Assembly (NCBI RefSeq): GCF_009882975.1
Contig: NZ_WTUX01000006.1
Location: 189,066-253,065 of the forward strand
Reading direction: 5' to 3'
DNA length: 64,000 nucleotides
Origin: Maritimibacter harenae
Lineage (GTDB): Bacteria > Pseudomonadota > Alphaproteobacteria > Rhodobacterales > Rhodobacteraceae
Position numbers and translations under genes: made by a program. Below, piece after piece: positions 16,016 to 45,489 of the stretch. How positions within the stretch are numbered: position 1 is the first letter of the stretch; the number at the start of each line of letters is the position of its first letter. Below the pieces are notes generated by a model that searched no databases, was not told the DNA's origin, and saw only the letters and a program-made list of their open reading frames with translations.

Positions 16016-16222
16016 TTAGCAGACGGTGGTGGTCGTCGCGCAGAAGATGCCGATGCCGACGAGGGCCAGGAAGATCAGCGGCACGATGATGCCGGCAGCC
16101 GAAGAGGACGACGACTGCTCAACGATGATTTCCGGCTCGACGACCGGCTCGACGATGGTGCCGGCCTGGGCGGCGGTGGCGGCGAGAGCGGCGACGGCCG
16201 CAACAAGCATGACTTTTTTCAT
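16016..16222 (-). CDS. Small secreted or membrane protein with Ser-rich linker, unknown function
   Basis: 68 residues. A cleavable signal (MKKVMLVAAVAALAATAAQA) is followed by a short acidic Val/Glu/Pro segment, a run of serines, and a strongly hydrophobic helix (IIVPLIFLALVGIGIF). The tail CATTTTVC has two cysteines. The start at 16222 has GGAG ten bases upstream; the longer frame is not needed. Proteins of this build (signal, acidic spacer, Ser run, one helix) occur in Rhodobacteraceae but have no assigned function. It has its own terminator. Confidence 0.65.
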   Translation of the reverse strand: MKKVMLVAAVAALAATAAQAGTIVEPVVEPEIIVEQSSSSSAAGIIVPLIFLALVGIGIFCATTTTVC

Positions 16223-36476: not shown

Positions 36477-37626
36477 CGATTGGCAACAGGGCGGGTTCGG
36501 GCTGTATGTCCACTGGCCCTTCTGCGCTGCCAAGTGCCCCTATTGCGACTTCAACAGCCATGTCGTCACCCAGGTGGACACGGACGCCTGGCGCGCCGCC
36601 TTCGTCTCGGAAATCGAGCGTGCGGCGGCCGAAACCCCGGATCGCCTGCTGAGATCCATCTATTTCGGCGGCGGAACGCCCTCTCTCATGCCGCCGGACG
36701 TGGTCGGCGCGGTGATCGACACCGCAACAGCGCTCTGGACCCCCGCGAACGACATCGAGATCACGCTGGAGGCCAACCCGTCTTCGGTGGAGGCCGGCCG
36801 GTTCCGCGGATACCGCGAAGCGGGCGTGAACAGGGTCTCTTTGGGCGTGCAGGCGCTCAACGACACCGATCTGCGCCGTCTGGGCCGCCTGCATGACGTG
36901 GCCGCGGCGCGAAAAGCGCTCGAGGTCGCGCGGGACACGTTCGAACGCACAAGTTTCGACCTGATCTACGCCCGGCAGGACCAGAGCCTGGCCGAATGGG
37001 AGGCGGAACTGGGCGAGGCGCTGTCCTGGTCCCCCGATCACCTGTCACTCTACCAACTGACGATCGAGCCCGGCACGGCCTTCGGCGACCGCTTCGCACG
37101 CGGCGGTCTGCGCGGGCTTCCGGACGAGGATCTTGCTGCCGACATGTACTTCGCGACGCAGGATCTGTGCGAGGCGCACGGTCTGCCCGCCTACGAAGTC
37201 TCGAACCATGCCCGTCCCGGGGCGGAATCCCGTCACAACCTGATCTACTGGAACGGTGGCGATTACGTCGGGATCGGCCCCGGCGCGCATGGACGGGTCA
37301 CGCTGGACGGTGTGCGCCACGCGACCTGGACCGTGGACGCCCCCTCGACTTGGCTCAAGGGGGCGCAGTCGGGCGCCGGCGAAGCCGGGCGTACACCGTT
37401 GTCCGCCGCCGAACAGGCCGGCGAATACCTCATGATGGGATTGCGCACGTCAGGTGGGCTAGATCTTGATCGACTGACACGGATCGCGGGCACACCCCTG
37501 CCCGTAGAAAAGATCGTCTATCTCGCCGACCTGGGGCTCATCCATGTCGATGACGGCATGCTCAAGGCGACGCGGGAGGGCCGCGCCGTCCTGAATGCCG
37601 TGATTTCAGAGCTCTTGCCGGATTAA
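36469..37626 (+). CDS. hemW: Radical SAM heme chaperone HemW
   Basis: 385 residues. The radical-SAM cluster is Cys19-Cys23-Cys26 in [12 protein letters not shown]; HemW-type [13 protein letters not shown] and [19 protein letters not shown] follow. HemW is related to HemN but lacks oxidase activity and inserts heme into acceptor proteins. The start is a TTG at 36469, since no ATG or GTG exists before the cluster. Its stop is shared in the palindrome TTAA with convergent parB. Confidence 0.92.
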
Positions 37627-38522
37627 ACGTCACCGCCGAGGATCCGGCACAGGTCGTCGAACTGGTCCAGCGTCTTGTACTGGATCGTCACGCTCCCCCG
37701 ATCTTCGCCATCCTTGTGGTCGATCGACACTTTCATGCCCGAAGCCGCCGAAAGCGATTGCTCCAGGGCGACGGTATCGGCGTCTTTCTGGGTTTTCGGC
37801 GCGGATTTCGGCGCCGGACGACTGATATCTCCGGATTTCGCCAGCCGCTCGATCTCCCGAACCGAGAGATTCTGGGCCACCGCCCGCTTCGCGAGCGCGA
37901 CCGGGTCATCCGCGGTGATGATCGCACGGGCCGCGCCGGCGGACAGCTTGCCCGCCCGCACGAAATCGAGCACTTCCGGCGGCAGATTCAGAAGCCGCAT
38001 CATGTTCGCGATATGAGAGCGTGATTTGCCCAGGGCCTCGGCCAACTTGTCCTGCGTATGGCCGAATTTCTCCATCAACTCGCGATATCCGGCCGCCTCT
38101 TCGATGGCGTTCAGGTCCGCGCGCTGAATGTTCTCGATGATCGCAACCTCGAGCGCCTCGGTATCGTCGAATTCCCGCACCAGCGCGGGCACCTTGTGCA
38201 GCTGCGCCATTTGGGCGGCGCGCCACCGCCGTTCGCCGGCAACGATCTGGAACACGCCGTCTTTCGACGGATGCGGACGCACGATGAGCGGTTGGATGAT
38301 GCCCTTTTCGCGGATCGAATTGGCGAGATCGTCCAGGCTGTCGGGCGCAAAGTCGCGGCGTGGCTGTTCCGGGTTCGCCTCGATCTTCTCGATCGGGATC
38401 ACGACATCCGGCTTGCGCGGCCCCGAGGTTTCCCTGCCCTGCGCTTCTTCCTCGGTCTGCACGTCCGCCATCAACGCCGACAGGCCGCGCCCCAGCCCAC
38501 GGTTCGGTTTCTTCGTCGCCAT
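37623..38522 (-). CDS. parB: Chromosome-partitioning protein ParB
   Basis: 299 residues. The N-terminus carries RGLGRGLSALMAD, a hallmark that stimulates ParA. The CTPase/NTD blocks are NPEQPRRDF and GERRWRAAQMAQLHKVPALV; the helix-turn-helix is HTQDKLAEALGKSRSHIANM. ParB loads at parS sites and spreads as a CTP-dependent clamp. Two perfect parS sites lie within 3.3 kb upstream. The start at 38522 follows the parA stop by one base. Confidence 0.97.
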   Translation of the reverse strand: MATKKPNRGLGRGLSALMADVQTEEEAQGRETSGPRKPDVVIPIEKIEANPEQPRRDFAPDSLDDLANSIREKGIIQPLIVRPHPSKDGVFQIVAGERRWRAAQMAQLHKVPALVREFDDTEALEVAIIENIQRADLNAIEEAAGYRELMEKFGHTQDKLAEALGKSRSHIANMMRLLNLPPEVLDFVRAGKLSAGAARAIITADDPVALAKRAVAQNLSVREIERLAKSGDISRPAPKSAPKTQKDADTVALEQSLSAASGMKVSIDHKDGEDRGSVTIQYKTLDQFDDLCRILGGDV

Positions 38523-38523
38523 G

Positions 38524-39300
38524 TTATCTTCCTTTCGCCGCGAGTTCATGGGCCAGCCGAACGTAGGCCTCGCTGCCTTTCGAGCCGGGATCGTAGGTGA
38601 TGACCGGCATCGCGTAGGACGGCGCCTCGCTCACCCGGACGTTGCGGGGCACGACGGTCTTGAACACCAGCTCCCCCAGCGTCTCGCGCGCATCGGCCTC
38701 GACCTGCTGGGCCAGGTTGTTCCGGCTGTCGTGCATGGTCAACACGACCCCCTCGATCCGCAGGCTGGGATTCGCCGCCTCCCGGACTTCGCGGATGGTG
38801 AGCATCAGCTGGCTGAGCCCCTCGAGCGCGAAGAATTCCGATTGCAGAGGGATCAGCACGGAATGGGCCGCGACAAGGGCGTTCACCGTCAACAAGTTGA
38901 GCGACGGCGGGCAATCGATCAAGATGTAGTCGTAAATGCCGCTTGTCTGGGGTGCGCGGAGCGCATCGTGCAGGAGGTGGGAGCGCTTTTCGTTCGCCAC
39001 CAGCTCCACGTCCGCGGAGGACAGGTCCGTCGTGGCCGGGGCGATCTTGAGGTTGTCGATGTCGGTCGGCATCACGACCTCGTCCAGCGGCGCCTCTTCG
39101 ATCAGCAGATCGTAGGTGGTCATCGCCCGCGCGTGGGGTTCGATGCCCAGGCCGGTGGAGGCGTTCCCCTGCGGATCGAGGTCCACAATGAGCACCTGGT
39201 TGCCGTCCATCGCCAGCGCAGCCGCGAGGTTGATTGCGGTCGTCGTCTTGCCAACGCCGCCCTTCTGGTTGGTGACGGCAATGATTTTCGCGTCAAGCAC
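38524..39300 (-). CDS. parA: Chromosome-partitioning ATPase ParA
   Basis: 258 residues. The deviant Walker A NQKGGVGKTTTAINLA is near the N-terminus, followed by LIVDLDPQGNAS and LIDCPPSLNLL. It is a dimerising DNA-binding ATPase that moves ParB-parS complexes. The start is a GTG at 39300 with AGGAG nine bases upstream, overlapping rsmG by eight bases. It is the fifth gene of the leftward rho operon. Confidence 0.97.
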   Translation of the reverse strand: MLDAKIIAVTNQKGGVGKTTTAINLAAALAMDGNQVLIVDLDPQGNASTGLGIEPHARAMTTYDLLIEEAPLDEVVMPTDIDNLKIAPATTDLSSADVELVANEKRSHLLHDALRAPQTSGIYDYILIDCPPSLNLLTVNALVAAHSVLIPLQSEFFALEGLSQLMLTIREVREAANPSLRIEGVVLTMHDSRNNLAQQVEADARETLGELVFKTVVPRNVRVSEAPSYAMPVITYDPGSKGSEAYVRLAHELAAKGR

Positions 39301-39913
39301 GACGGATATCTCCTACCTTGAGGATGACGGCGTTGGGATTGGTCTGGCTTTGATATGTATCGGCTGCGAACCGCCAGGATTCAAGCGCTTGCTGCACTTC
39401 CGAGCGATACGAATCGCCTTTCGGGAACAGCGCGATGCCACCGGGCTTCAAGTGGCGCTGAACCATTGGCAAAAGCCTGTCCAGGGCGGCGAGCGCACGC
39501 GCGGATACGACGTCGGCGTTCATGGCCGGCGCCGCCTCGATCCGCTCCGCGCGCACCTCGGCCTTGATGCCGGTTTCGCGCAGGACGGTGCGAAGGAAGG
39601 TCGCCTTCCGCTGGTCGCTTTCGATGCAGGTCACGGCGAGGTCCGGCGCCAATTCTGCCGCGAGGACGGCGACGACGAGGCCGGGAAAGCCGCCGCCGGT
39701 GCCAAGATCCACCCAGCTTCGGGCCTCCGGTGGTGCCAGCTCGAAAACCTGTGCGGAATCCGCGATGTGGCGGGTCCAGAGGTCGGGAAGCGTGGACGGC
39801 GCGACGAGGTTGATGCGCGGGTTCCAGCGCTTCAGAAGGTCGGCATAGATTTCCAGGCGGCCCAATGTTTCACGTGAAACATCCTGGCCCCCTACCCTCA
39901 GCGAACGCGTCAT
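39293..39913 (-). CDS. rsmG: 16S rRNA (guanine527-N7)-methyltransferase RsmG
   Basis: 206 residues. The family core is [30 protein letters not shown] and the SAM-binding [16 protein letters not shown], with [12 protein letters not shown]. The N-terminal DVSRET stretch is encoded across a perfect parS palindrome. It methylates G527 of 16S rRNA. ATGA overlaps link it to mnmG upstream. Confidence 0.96.
39866..39881. other. parS centromere site 1
   Basis: The perfect 16-bp palindrome TGTTTCACGTGAAACA, identical to the widely conserved bacterial parS. It lies inside the first codons of rsmG, 1.3 kb from parB. Confidence 0.95.
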
Positions 39914-41802
39914 GCGGTTTTCGCGCGCTCCATCTGCCGCAACTTGGCGAGCAGCAATGTGAGCGCCGCCGGCGTCATCCCCTCGATCCGCCCGGCCTGG
40001 GCCAGCGTTTCCGGGCGCGCGGCGGAAAGTTTCGCCTTCAGTTCGCTCGTCAGCCCGTCGAGGATCGCGTAATCGAAGGATGGCGGGATCGCGTGCCCCT
40101 CGTCCCGCTTCAACGCCTCCACTTCCCGTTTCTGGCGCTCGATATACTTGGCATAAAGCGCGTCCTTCGCGACCTGCGTGCGCGTATCCGGATCGATGCC
40201 GTCGAATTCCGGATCGAGGGCGACGATGTTGTCGAATGTGATTCCCGGGATCGACAGCAGATCATACGCCGTCCGCCGCGTCCCGTCCTCGCGCACCGAA
40301 CCGCCGGCCGCATTGACTTCCTGCGGGGTGAAATGCCGCGCCGTCAGGGACCTGGTCGCCTGGGCGAGCCGGACCATCTTTTCTTCGAACGCCTCCGCGC
40401 GTCGATCCGACACGATACCGTGCGTGATGCCCACCGGCGTCAGCCGCTGATCCGCGTTGTCGGCACGCAGCGAAAGGCGATATTCGGCCCGCGAGGTGAA
40501 CATGCGGTACGGCTCCGTCACGCCGCGAGTCACCAGGTCGTCGATCATGACGCCGATGTAGGAGCTCGTCCGGCTGAATTGCACCGTCTCACGCCCCAAC
40601 GATTGCAGGCCCGCGTTGAGTCCCGCAACCAGGCCCTGCGCGGCCGCCTCTTCATATCCCGTCGTGCCGTTGATCTGGCCGGCGAGGAACAGCCCGCAAA
40701 CATCGCGCAGCTCGAGATGCGAGGTCAGCGCCCGGGGATCGACGTAATCGTATTCGATGGCATAACCGGGCTGGAGGATCTTCACCTCTTCGAGCCCCGC
40801 GATGGTACGCACGTACGCTTCCTGGACCTCCATCGGCAGCGAGGTGGAGATGCCGTTGGGATAAACGGTGTGATCGTCCAAACCTTCCGGCTCAAGGAAC
40901 ACCTGGTGTGAGTCCTTGTCCGAGAAACGCACCACCTTGTCTTCGATCGACGGACAGTACCGGGGGCCGACGCCGTCGATATGCCCGCCGTACATCGCCG
41001 ATTTGTCCAGGTTTTGCTGGATGATCTCGTGCGTCCCCGCATTGGTATGCGTGATGCCGCAGGCGACCTGCCGCGCCTGGGGGCGTCGGTTGAGAAACGA
41101 GAACATGTCGGGCGTGGCGTCGCCATCCTGGCGGTCCAGCCGGTCCCAGTCGATCGTGCGCCCGTCGAGCCGCGGTGGCGTCCCCGTCTTGAGTCGGCCG
41201 AGCGGCAGGCCGAAGGAATCGATCTGCTCGGCCAGGGGCACGGTCGCGTTCTGACCCATGCGCCCGCCGTGCCTGCGTTCGTTCCCGATGTGGATGACGC
41301 CCCGCAGAAAAGTGCCGGTGGTCAGCACCACCCGGGAGGCCGTGATTTCCGAGCCATCGCCCAAGGCCAGGCCTGTGACACGCGGCCCGTCCATGAGAAA
41401 CGCGCGGGCCTCCCCTTCCACAAGCGTCAGGTTTGCCTGCCCGTCGACGATCTTTGCGATGGCGTGGCGGTAGAGCTTCCGATCCGTCTGCGCGCGCGGG
41501 CCCTGAACAGCCGGTCCTTTCGACCGGTTCAACAGGCGGAACTGAATCCCCGCGGCGTCCGCAGCGAGGCCCATCGCGCCGTCCAGCGCATCCACTTCGC
41601 GCACGAGGTGTCCTTTGCCAAGGCCACCGATCGCCGGATTGCAGGACATGACACCCAGGTCGTCCCGGCGCAGCGTCACCAGGGCAGTTCGCGCACCGAC
41701 CCGGGCCGCAGCCAACGCTGCTTCCACGCCGGCATGCCCGCCGCCGATCACAACCACATCGAAGTCAGGATGTTTCACGTGAAACACTCCCCTTGCCATC
41801 AT
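39910..41802 (-). CDS. mnmG: tRNA uridine-5-carboxymethylaminomethyl(34) synthesis enzyme MnmG (GidA)
   Basis: 630 residues. FAD binding is by [20 protein letters not shown]; signature segments are [20 protein letters not shown] and [20 protein letters not shown]. With MnmE it modifies wobble uridine of several tRNAs. The start is ATG 41802 (ATGA overlap with mnmE); the adjacent ATG 41799 or a GTG within the parS-coded segment are alternatives, since the conserved part begins only after [10 protein letters not shown]. Confidence 0.96.
41771..41786. other. parS centromere site 2
   Basis: A second perfect copy of TGTTTCACGTGAAACA, coding for FHVKH at the N-terminus of mnmG. It lies about 2.7-3.1 kb from the putative oriC, the usual parS position. 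Confidence 0.95.
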
Positions 41803-43088: not shown

Positions 43089-44357
43089 CTAGGCGTTCAT
43101 CGAGTCGAAGAACTCCGAGTTGTTCTTCGTCTGCTTGAGCTTGGAAATCAGGAACTCGATCGCATCCGTGGTGCCCATCGGGTTCAGGATCCGGCGCAGA
43201 ACATAGGTCTTCTGCAGGTCCTTCTGGTCGACCAGGAGCTCTTCTTTCCGCGTGCCGGACTTGAGAATGTCGATCGCCGGGAAGATCCGTTTGTCGGAAA
43301 CCTTGCGGTCCAGCACCAGCTCCGAGTTGCCGGTGCCCTTGAATTCCTCGAAGATGACCTCGTCCATCCGGCTGCCGGTGTCGATCAGCGCGGTCGCGAT
43401 GATGGTCAGCGATCCACCCTCTTCGATATTCCGCGCGGCGCCGAAGAACCGTTTCGGACGTTGCAGCGCATTGGCGTCCACACCACCGGTCAGCACCTTG
43501 CCCGACGACGGCACCGTCGTGTTGAAGGCGCGGCCCAGGCGGGTGATGGAGTCGAGCAGGATCACCACGTCGCGCTTGTGTTCGACCAGCCGCTTGGCCT
43601 TCTCGATCACCATCTCCGACACGGCGACGTGGCGCGAGGCCGGCTCGTCGAAGGTCGAAGCGACGACCTCGCCGTTCACCGAACGCTTCATGTCCGTCAC
43701 CTCTTCCGGGCGCTCGTCGATGAGCAGCACGATCAGGTAGACCTCCGGATGGTTGACCGAGATCGAATGCGCGATGTTCTGCATCAGCACGGTCTTACCG
43801 GTCCGCGGCGGCGCCACGATCAGCGAGCGCTGGCCCTTCCCGATCGGGGCGACCAGGTCGATGATACGCGCCGAGCGGTCCTTGATCGTCGGATCGTCGA
43901 TTTCCATCTTCAGCCGCTCGTCCGGGTGCAGCGGCGTCAGGTTGTCGAAAGCCACCTTGTGGCGCGCGGTTTCCGGGTCGGTGAAGTTGATCTTCTCGAC
44001 CTGGGTGATCGCGAAGTAGTTCTCGTTCTCCCCCGGCGCGGCGATGACCCCCTCGACGGTGTCGCCGGTGCGCAGGCTGTGTTTCCGGATCATCTCGGGC
44101 GACATGTAGATGTCGTCGGGGCCCGGCAGGTAGTTGGCTTCCGGCGAGCGCAGGAACCCGAACCCGTCCTGGAGCACTTCCAGCACGCCATCGCCCGCGA
44201 TTTCCCAGCCATCCTCGGCCCGGGCCTGGAGGATCTGGAACATCATCTCGCCCTTGCGCATGGTCGAGGCGTTCTCGATCTCGAGCTGCTCGGCCATCGC
44301 AAGAAGATCCTTCGGGCTCTGGGCCTTCAGATCGGACAGGTTCAAACGTTCAGTCAT
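43089..44357 (-). CDS. rho: Transcription termination factor Rho
   Basis: 422 residues. The N-terminal Rho-N helix bundle (about 1-45) and RNA-binding cold-shock fold ([20 protein letters not shown]) precede the ATPase with Walker [38 protein letters not shown] and the secondary-site loop [20 protein letters not shown]. It is a hexameric RNA helicase. It heads the leftward operon that ends with parB. Confidence 0.98.
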
Positions 44358-44443
44358 GGGGAGTCACCAACGGGACGGCGCAGGCGGCGCAGTCGTTCTA
44401 ATGGAATGGAAAGCGTCGGACCGGACGGCCCTTTGATCACGGG

Positions 44444-44472
44444 CATATAGGCGAGCCCGGGTTTCAAGTCAA
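44444..44472 (-). promoter_or_regulatory. Sigma-70 promoter of the rho operon
   Basis: On the minus strand TTGACT, a 17-base spacer, then TATATG: five and four of six consensus bases with ideal spacing. Transcription would start near 44437, giving a leader of about 80 bases before the rho ATG. Confidence 0.6.
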
Positions 44473-44889
44473 TCTCACGCTCTTTGCCCGGCGGCGGGCC
44501 CACCGGGCGCCCACTCCTTATTAAAAGAAAATATTTAGAAAGGATGGTGAAGTTAGTAGGTCCTGTGGACATTGTGGATTACCGGCTTGTCCGCATGACG
44601 GCGCACATATCCCGGGATCTAGGGACAAGATGGTGAAAGGCCGTTCCACTCCCAGATAAGTCATTTAATATCAAGTATTTATCCGAAATCCGCCCTGTGG
44701 ATAGTTCCGGGGAGGATTCTGCGCACCGACGATTTCATCCCCAGCCCGGCCGTTTTCGTTCTCCCGTGTGTAGGATCGGCTCGGCGGAATCCGCATAACC
44801 CGCGGATCGTCGGGGACGCAGGAATTGCACACATCCACGCACAGCCGCATAAGGAGGAACACACAGAGAATATCCACAGGGTTTCCAAC
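44473..44889. other. Putative chromosomal replication origin (oriC)
   Basis: A gene-free stretch, AT-richer than its surroundings, between divergent rho and maf. AT tracts lie at about 44518-44543 and 44660-44683. DnaA-box-like nonamers, consensus TTATCCACA, are TGTGGATTA (44573-44581), TGTGGATAG (44696-44704) and ATATCCACA (44870-44878), each with one mismatch. Weaker copies with two mismatches are at 44564-44572 and 44679-44687. Two GANTC sites for CcrM methylation are at 44715 and 44787. Both flanking operons run away from it, and parA, parB and two parS sites are nearby. Conservation of this position as origin in related genomes supports the call; function is inferred. Confidence 0.7.
44825..44853 (+). 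promoter_or_regulatory. Possible promoter of the maf operon
   Basis: TTGCAC, 17 bases, CATAAG, ending 36 bases before the maf ATG, inside the origin region. AAGGAGG at 44851-44857 is too far from the maf start to be its ribosome binding site. Confidence 0.4.
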
Positions 44890-45489
44890 ATGCCGACACC
44901 GCTGATCCTCGCCTCGGGGTCCGAGATCCGGGCCACCCTGCTCGCCAATGCGGGCCTGGAATTCGAGGTGATGCCGGCCCGGGTCGACGAATCGGCGATC
45001 CGCGCGGGGCTGGAGGCGGAAAACGCGGCACCGCGCGACGTGGCCGACACCCTGGCGGAATACAAAGCGCGCAAGGTGGGCGGCAAACGTCCCGACGCGC
45101 TGGTGCTGGGCTGTGACCAGGTCGCGGCCTTGAAAGGCGAGATCCTGACGAAGCCCGGCTCACCGGATGAAGCGCGCGCGCAGCTCGCCCGGCTGTCCGG
45201 CCAGACCCACCAGCTTCTCTCGGCCGCGGTGATCTATCATGACGGGGAGCCGATCTGGCGGCACGTGGGCGTCGTGCGGCTCACCATGCACGGCCTGTCG
45301 GAGCGGTTCATCGACGACTATGTCTCCCGCAACTGGGACAGCATCCGCGACGCGGTCGGGGCCTACAAGCTCGAGGAAGAAGGCGTGCGCCTGTTCTCGC
45401 GCATCGACGGGGCCTATTTCAACGTGCTCGGCTTGCCGTTGACCGAACTCCTGTCCTATCTCGTTCTCAGAGGAGAGCTTGAGATATGA
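44890..45489 (+). CDS. maf: Maf-family nucleotide pyrophosphatase
   Basis: 199 residues. Family motifs are LASGSEIRATLLANAGL at the N-terminus, AEYKARKV, GCDQVAALKGEILTKPG and DSIRDAVGAYKLEEEG. Maf proteins hydrolyse dTTP/UTP or modified nucleotides and are linked to septum formation. The start at 44890 fits the conserved N-terminus; the ribosome binding site is weak. The stop overlaps aroE (ATGA). Confidence 0.92.
   Translation: MPTPLILASGSEIRATLLANAGLEFEVMPARVDESAIRAGLEAENAAPRDVADTLAEYKARKVGGKRPDALVLGCDQVAALKGEILTKPGSPDEARAQLARLSGQTHQLLSAAVIYHDGEPIWRHVGVVRLTMHGLSERFIDDYVSRNWDSIRDAVGAYKLEEEGVRLFSRIDGAYFNVLGLPLTELLSYLVLRGELEI

Follow-up and report, generated by a model that had tools for sequence, protein, structure and literature searches.

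In the 64-kb stretch of the Maritimibacter harenae genome analysed here (the window), rho and maf point away from each other on either side of a gap without genes (Table 1). The gap, at 233.7 kb of contig C67, had been predicted to be the chromosomal replication origin. Its length, originally put at about 530 bases, is exactly 532 bp, and divergent genes lead away from it on both sides, as predicted. AT-rich tracts had also been noted; the lowest-GC 50-bp stretch (starting at 44512) and the lowest-GC 100-bp stretch (starting at 44511) of the window do lie in the gap, and the lowest-GC 300-bp stretch lies outside it (starting at 16202).

Table 1. Features of the rho–maf locus of M. harenae, in window positions.
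Feature	Position	Strand	Remarks
parB (37623-38549) and parA (38524-39300)	37623..39300	-	identified by Pfam
parS, copy 1	39866..39881	.	exact; near the start of rsmG (gidB)
parS, copy 2	41771..41786	.	exact; near the start of mnmG (gidA)
rho	43089..44357	-	left neighbour; identified by Pfam
Gene-free gap	44358..44889	.	532 bp, between divergent rho and maf
Predicted oriC region proper	about 44473-44889		within the rho–maf gap
Conserved core, model R1	44513..44590	+	putative origin core: A-rich tract, G-triplet tract, TAGG, tandem DnaA boxes
AT-rich tract	44518..44541	.	presumed DNA unwinding element; A-rich in 20 aligned gaps
G-triplet tract GGATGGTGAAGTTAG, then TAG	44542..44559	+	DnaA-trio-like by position, not by sequence
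Weak DnaA box ATGTCCACA	44564..44572	-	head-to-tail with the box at 44573
DnaA box TAATCCACA	44573..44581	-	1 mismatch
IHF consensus match TATCAAGTATTTA	44669..44681	+	sole match in the 64 kb
DnaA box CTATCCACA	44696..44704	-	1 mismatch
Weak DnaA site TCATCCCCA, W-box-like	44735..44743	+	contains the W-box core TCCCCA
DnaA box ATATCCACA	44870..44878	+	1 mismatch; 20 bp before maf
maf	44890..45489	+	right neighbour, identified by Pfam; followed by aroE and coaE

DnaA boxes were scored against TTATCCACA, allowing one mismatch for the better boxes. The three such boxes and the two weaker sites that had been predicted were all found where they had been placed; for the W-box-like site, the core motif is the one given in excerpts of PMC4285127. 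A genome-wide search for the tandem pattern TAATCCACANNNTCCACAGG, allowing two mismatches, gave a single site, at 44564–44581. Against the three better boxes in 44473–44889, 2000 dinucleotide shuffles of this segment contain 0.09 on average (P = 0.0005). Of 5691 overlapping 417-bp scan windows covering 289,724 bases of the M. harenae genome, 2 reach three boxes, and both are the candidate itself. A cluster of DnaA boxes beyond chance is characteristic of a DnaA-dependent bacterial oriC, as is an AT-rich tract beside the boxes, here the presumed unwinding element.

The presence of parAB and two parS sites within 7 kb of the gap was confirmed. At up to one mismatch, these two copies are the only parS sites in the M. 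harenae genome, and in all six genomes searched parS was confined to this locus at this threshold. Both copies fall inside early codons, at FHVKH in mnmG and VSRET in rsmG. The dnaA gene lies 94 kb from the gap.

Strand skew at the rho–maf gap

The M. harenae assembly consists of 70 contigs, and skew was taken from C67 (315,724 bp) only. To the left of the gap, GC skew is negative in eight of nine stretches, the exception being +0.010; to the right, it is -0.0003, +0.014, +0.014 and +0.019. The sign of the GC skew changes at the gap in this contig. Cumulative skew in the 64 kb alone is not decisive, being equally low at 60–63 kb and 43–45 kb.

Two relatives were sampled in the same respect. 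The 3.99-Mb scaffold of Maritimibacter alkaliphilus HTCC2654 was covered by 40 stretches of 20 kb (20% of its length), the first 20 spaced nearly evenly and the other half dense near the expected origin and terminus. GC skew fits best with an origin at 2.57–2.58 Mb and a terminus at 0.58–0.59 Mb, and the orthologous gap, at 2.577–2.578 Mb, falls inside the fitted origin. The octamer GGGNAGGG places the origin at 2.54–2.56 Mb and the terminus at 0.56–0.57 Mb, with its switch about 18–38 kb away from the gap. For Maritimibacter sp. HL-12 (20 stretches, 11% sampled), GC skew puts the origin at 1.55–1.57 Mb, and the orthologous gap is at 1.560 Mb; here the octamer disagrees, switching at 1.99–2.17 Mb with a weak signal (net 28 of 74). 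GC skew supports the site in three genomes, and the octamer supports it, with the offset given, in M. alkaliphilus and not in HL-12. A skew switch elsewhere on the chromosome, which the original prediction had named as speaking against an origin here, was not seen in GC skew as far as the sampled stretches reach: the sign changes at the gap in C67, and the best skew fit falls at the gap in the samples of both relatives. A strand-skew minimum, another mark of an oriC, is present at the site in our contig and in the 20% and 11% samples.

On the M. alkaliphilus scaffold, a dif-like site lies at about 564.6 kb (C4, locus L081, in the 560–580 kb stretch), 2.01 and 1.98 Mb from the gap. It coincides with the convergence of octamer polarity, almost opposite the origin. 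The site matches 21 of 28 bases of the Escherichia coli dif motif; by base count, this is the best match in 72 stretches of three genomes (next best, 19 of 28).

A conserved core at the same position in relatives

A Maf-based scan gave 29 named loci, 26 of which have rho and maf divergent around a gap; together with that of M. harenae, these make up the 27 gaps compared here. In the other three, the contig begins in maf (L026), or the locus is distant and without rho in the stretch (L029 and L030). In 22 of the 27 gaps, a HemJ-type ORF of roughly 150 aa separates rho from the origin, with PF03653 confirmed in three. It is absent from this position in M. harenae, L002–L004 and L015. The M. harenae genome, lacking hemJ at 44358–44510, has its best PF03653 match elsewhere (C50:161732-162145, 84 bits), weaker than the 193–202 bits of three relatives with hemJ at the origin.

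Many of the 27 gaps carry TAATCCACA or TAATCCCCA at a comparable position, and a box-like site at -20 of maf recurs in several relatives. Boxes within one mismatch number only one in the M. alkaliphilus gap (L002) and none in L005 and L013. The strict IHF consensus is matched in three gaps, those of M. harenae, L004 (same position) and L023 (nearby), with no match in the other 24 of the 27; an IHF site in our gap is possible. The CtrA motif TTAA-N7-TTAA is absent from the M. harenae gap and occurs once each in two of the 27, and CtrA control of the origin was dropped for lack of this motif.

Twenty gaps, chosen as the alignable ones with seven left out, share an A-rich tract, GATG, GTAGG and the box end GGATTA. 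R1, a sequence-only model of the 77-bp core, has a single match in the M. harenae genome at E values up to 1 (E 1.6e-13). Among 121 genomes drawn from 59 genera of the order, all from the family of M. harenae, R1 at E ≤0.01 matched once each in 106, representing 52 of the 59 genera. Placement was checked for 70 of the 106 matches, the 30 best (M. harenae included) and the 40 weakest, and every one of these 70 sits with rho on one side and maf or aroE on the other, the flanking genes being divergent. Of these, 68 have maf, at 278–368 bp from the core. In L160 and L161, the aroE match begins some 440 bp away from the core with no maf found in between, and the origin there seems to have lost another neighbour. 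hemJ stands between rho and the core in 52 of the 70 and was not found there in 18, M. harenae among them; its loss was rejected as a marker of near relatives.

No match at E 0.01 was obtained in 15 of the 121 genomes, 14 of which have rho and maf around a gap, the fifteenth having maf but no rho within reach. When the filters were turned off, weak matches in the gap appeared in 13 of the 15 (E 0.00015–0.05 over 53,679 bases); in another genome the match lay 1.2 kb from maf, and the last gave none. The seven gaps excluded from the alignment, also searched with filters off, comprised five with good matches (L010, L011, L014, L020 and L023), one with a weak match (L028) and one with a match that is not credible (L027). 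A weak match in L029 lies about 1.2 kb before maf.

Across the class, R1 matched 65 of 192 genomes drawn and had no match in 127. Three of the 65 belong to the family of M. harenae and 62 lie outside the order; the best 17 of the 62 were placed. Among these best 17, hemE adjoins the core in 14 and maf flanks it on the opposite side in 13, with both present in 11; hemE and/or maf adjoin the core in 16, and the remaining locus, L191, which is short, has neither. The ORF between core and maf belongs to PF03618 (COG1806/DUF299) in ten of ten loci tested, nine with maf in the stretch and L203 judged by ORF position. In L199, L201, L202 and L206, maf is the next gene after the core.

The experimentally identified origin of Caulobacter crescentus, Cori, is flanked by hemE and COG1806/DUF299, as described in excerpts of PMC1914354. 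By position, the M. harenae gap is orthologous to this hemE/COG1806 gap; neither gene is an immediate neighbour. hemE lies on another contig, C52, and PF03618 has no match in the whole M. harenae genome, although the family flanks the origin in other alphaproteobacteria. Because the core stands beside hemE, COG1806 and maf outside the order, we take our gap to be the Cori locus by descent, parted from both classic neighbours. Compared with Cori by description, it agrees in its place within the class-wide gene order (hemE, core, COG1806, maf in relatives), in having 9-mer and W-type DnaA sites, and in its AT-rich tract and, possibly, an IHF site (one consensus match). It differs in its neighbours, rho and maf, in the absence of a CtrA site, and in its better boxes, TAATCCACA, CTATCCACA and ATATCCACA, which are not the G-box TGATCCACA given in the excerpted text of PMC4285127.

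The G-triplet tract and the DnaA-trio pattern

On the plus strand, the sequence leading up to the tandem boxes from the left is nearly free of C, and in relatives G recurs at about every third base. In rows from the order, the mean best-phase share of G over 15 nt was 0.777, against 0.515 (sd 0.012) in shuffles. This figure comes from 82 of 84 rows, two having too few G; the 84 rows derive from 88 sources, near-copies having been removed beforehand. Seventeen other alphaproteobacteria gave 0.706 against 0.504 (sd 0.024). Because the first rows had been found with a model that contains the triplets, the test was repeated on gaps placed independently, by gene adjacency and alignment only (26 of 27, L027 having too few letters). 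The result was 0.765 against 0.531, with none of 2000 shuffles reaching the observed value. Comparable C-poor windows of the same gaps, the element included, averaged 0.597. The rows in these tests are related and hence not independent trials. The M. harenae tract is less regular than those of its relatives: four of its seven G share a phase, which is shifted by one base from that of TAG, as judged by eye. The G-every-third test replaced a count of GAT-type tandem triplets, which were present in 16 of 20 rows in the order (shuffles 0.18) and in 3 of 17 outside it (shuffles 0.19).

The strict box TGKGGATHA was found in 43 of the 84 order rows. Measured rightwards from the T of TAG, it starts at 16 nt in 33 rows, at 15–17 nt in 40 and at other offsets in 3; no such box was found in the other 41. 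Outside the order, 8 of 17 rows have it at 15–17 nt. The spacer from TAG to the conserved box is 13 nt.

According to excerpts of PMC8287927, the basal origin unwinding system (BUS) of Bacillus subtilis and others consists of tandem DnaA boxes, a spacer and DnaA-trios, and 13 is the commonest spacer in the BUS survey. The M. harenae core resembles this arrangement in its tandem boxes followed by a short spacer (boxes at 44564–44581), in the length of that spacer, in the triplet periodicity beside the boxes and in the AT-rich tract beyond. The B. subtilis trios have the same strand orientation as the G-triplet tract here. Unlike a BUS, however, the M. harenae core lacks three or more successive 3'-NAN-5' triplets within 16 bp of the box, and in relatives such runs do not rise above shuffle level: 27 of 72 box-bearing rows in the order (0.375, shuffles 0.39) and 2 of 14 in other alphaproteobacteria (shuffles 0.27). 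With the register fixed they fall below it, at 0 of 56 rows (0.20 in shuffles). A further difference is the central base of the triplets, which in the order is mostly T (50–57 of 84 rows at four positions).

Tested against the published pattern, the core does not fit a DnaA-trio. Reading CTA-CTA on the minus strand as two DnaA-trios was rejected, the pattern being absent and the relatives at shuffle level, and a classification as BUS with DnaA-trios was rejected with the failure of the NAN test. We tentatively suggest, with more doubt than confidence, that alphaproteobacterial origins share an unwinding element of a deviant DnaA-trio type, with G-periodic triplets in the position of the trios and, in the order, mostly T in the middle. 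If this is true, DnaA would open the origin by reading either a strand that is G-periodic and poor in adenine or the strand opposite it, and there would be a broad natural set of deviant DnaA-trios. Trios without the middle adenine are suspected in the excerpted BUS paper (PMC8287927); no such natural set was found in the titles and abstract openings of the literature searched.

Probable origin function and its alternatives

The prediction that the gap is oriC is supported by the box cluster, the skew sign change and the single conserved core at the locus. From these sequence features, we consider it very probable that chromosome replication starts in the rho–maf gap, a site whose position makes it the orthologue of Caulobacter Cori; this would be an ordinary origin with changed neighbours.

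The gap could be an ordinary long intergenic region instead, made up of a rho leader and a maf promoter, with gene-regulating DnaA boxes and no origin function. rho and maf diverge from it, so promoters are expected there, and DnaA regulates genes too. We regard this as highly improbable, since the core persists with hemJ between it and rho, where maf is not found, or flanked by hemE and COG1806, and the GC skew changes sign at this very gap. Scans of the gap for sigma-70-like promoters, terminators and Rfam families gave nothing, a result that says little in this group and counts weakly against the intergenic reading. An origin elsewhere nearby, at dnaA or beside gidA, is a shade less probable still. 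Ori-Finder placed the origins of Bradyrhizobiaceae next to gidA, according to the abridged text of PMC2275245; the parS copies near the starts of gidA and gidB fit such a location, and skew is unable to separate loci 5 kb apart, such as gidA and the rho–maf gap. However, gidB, gidA and mnmE run into one another, with overlaps of a few bases between their reading frames that leave no room for a gap at gidA. Three boxes per 417 bp are reached nowhere in the dnaA region (C67:125-145 kb) or in the other M. harenae sequence scanned, and the conserved core sits in the rho–maf gap rather than at dnaA or gidA.

With the rho–maf gap as oriC, the features, conservation, skew switch and gene order seen here can be joined to what other bacteria suggest about binding, melting and segregation. 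DnaA would bind the tandem boxes at 44564–44581 and the boxes at 44696 and 44870, with IHF possibly bending the DNA between boxes at 44669. From the tandem boxes, a DnaA filament would extend leftwards across the short spacer and reach one of the two strands of the tract that holds the G triplets and the A-rich sequence (44518–44559), which would then melt. Two helicases would be loaded and forks would depart both ways, and ParB on the two parS sites 3–5 kb away would move the copied origin.

Origins near parAB were already known for chromosomes of this group, from what the excerpted texts of two studies report. In 101 Rhodobacteraceae, oriC was predicted by Ori-Finder and chosen near parAB and the GC-disparity minimum (PMC6699656), and oriC1 of Rhodobacter sphaeroides was placed by skew, with ParB foci used (PMC6315104). 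Both concern related bacteria, and their main-text excerpts name neither rho–maf nor a shared core. More generally, the titles, abstract openings and excerpts of the literature searched do not name the rho–maf gap or a class-wide triplet core, which is not proof of absence.

These results fix the origin of the M. harenae genome, at the confidence given above, and provide a 77-bp core that finds the origin in most sampled genomes of the family without a closed genome or a skew plot. The conserved, presumed DNA-opening element departs from the published DnaA-trio rule and offers a concrete, testable candidate for the suspected deviant DnaA-trio motif, in the class of the cell-cycle model Caulobacter. 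With hemE elsewhere, COG1806 gone and hemJ variable, while position and core stay, our analysis suggests that an origin can survive separation from both classic neighbour genes.
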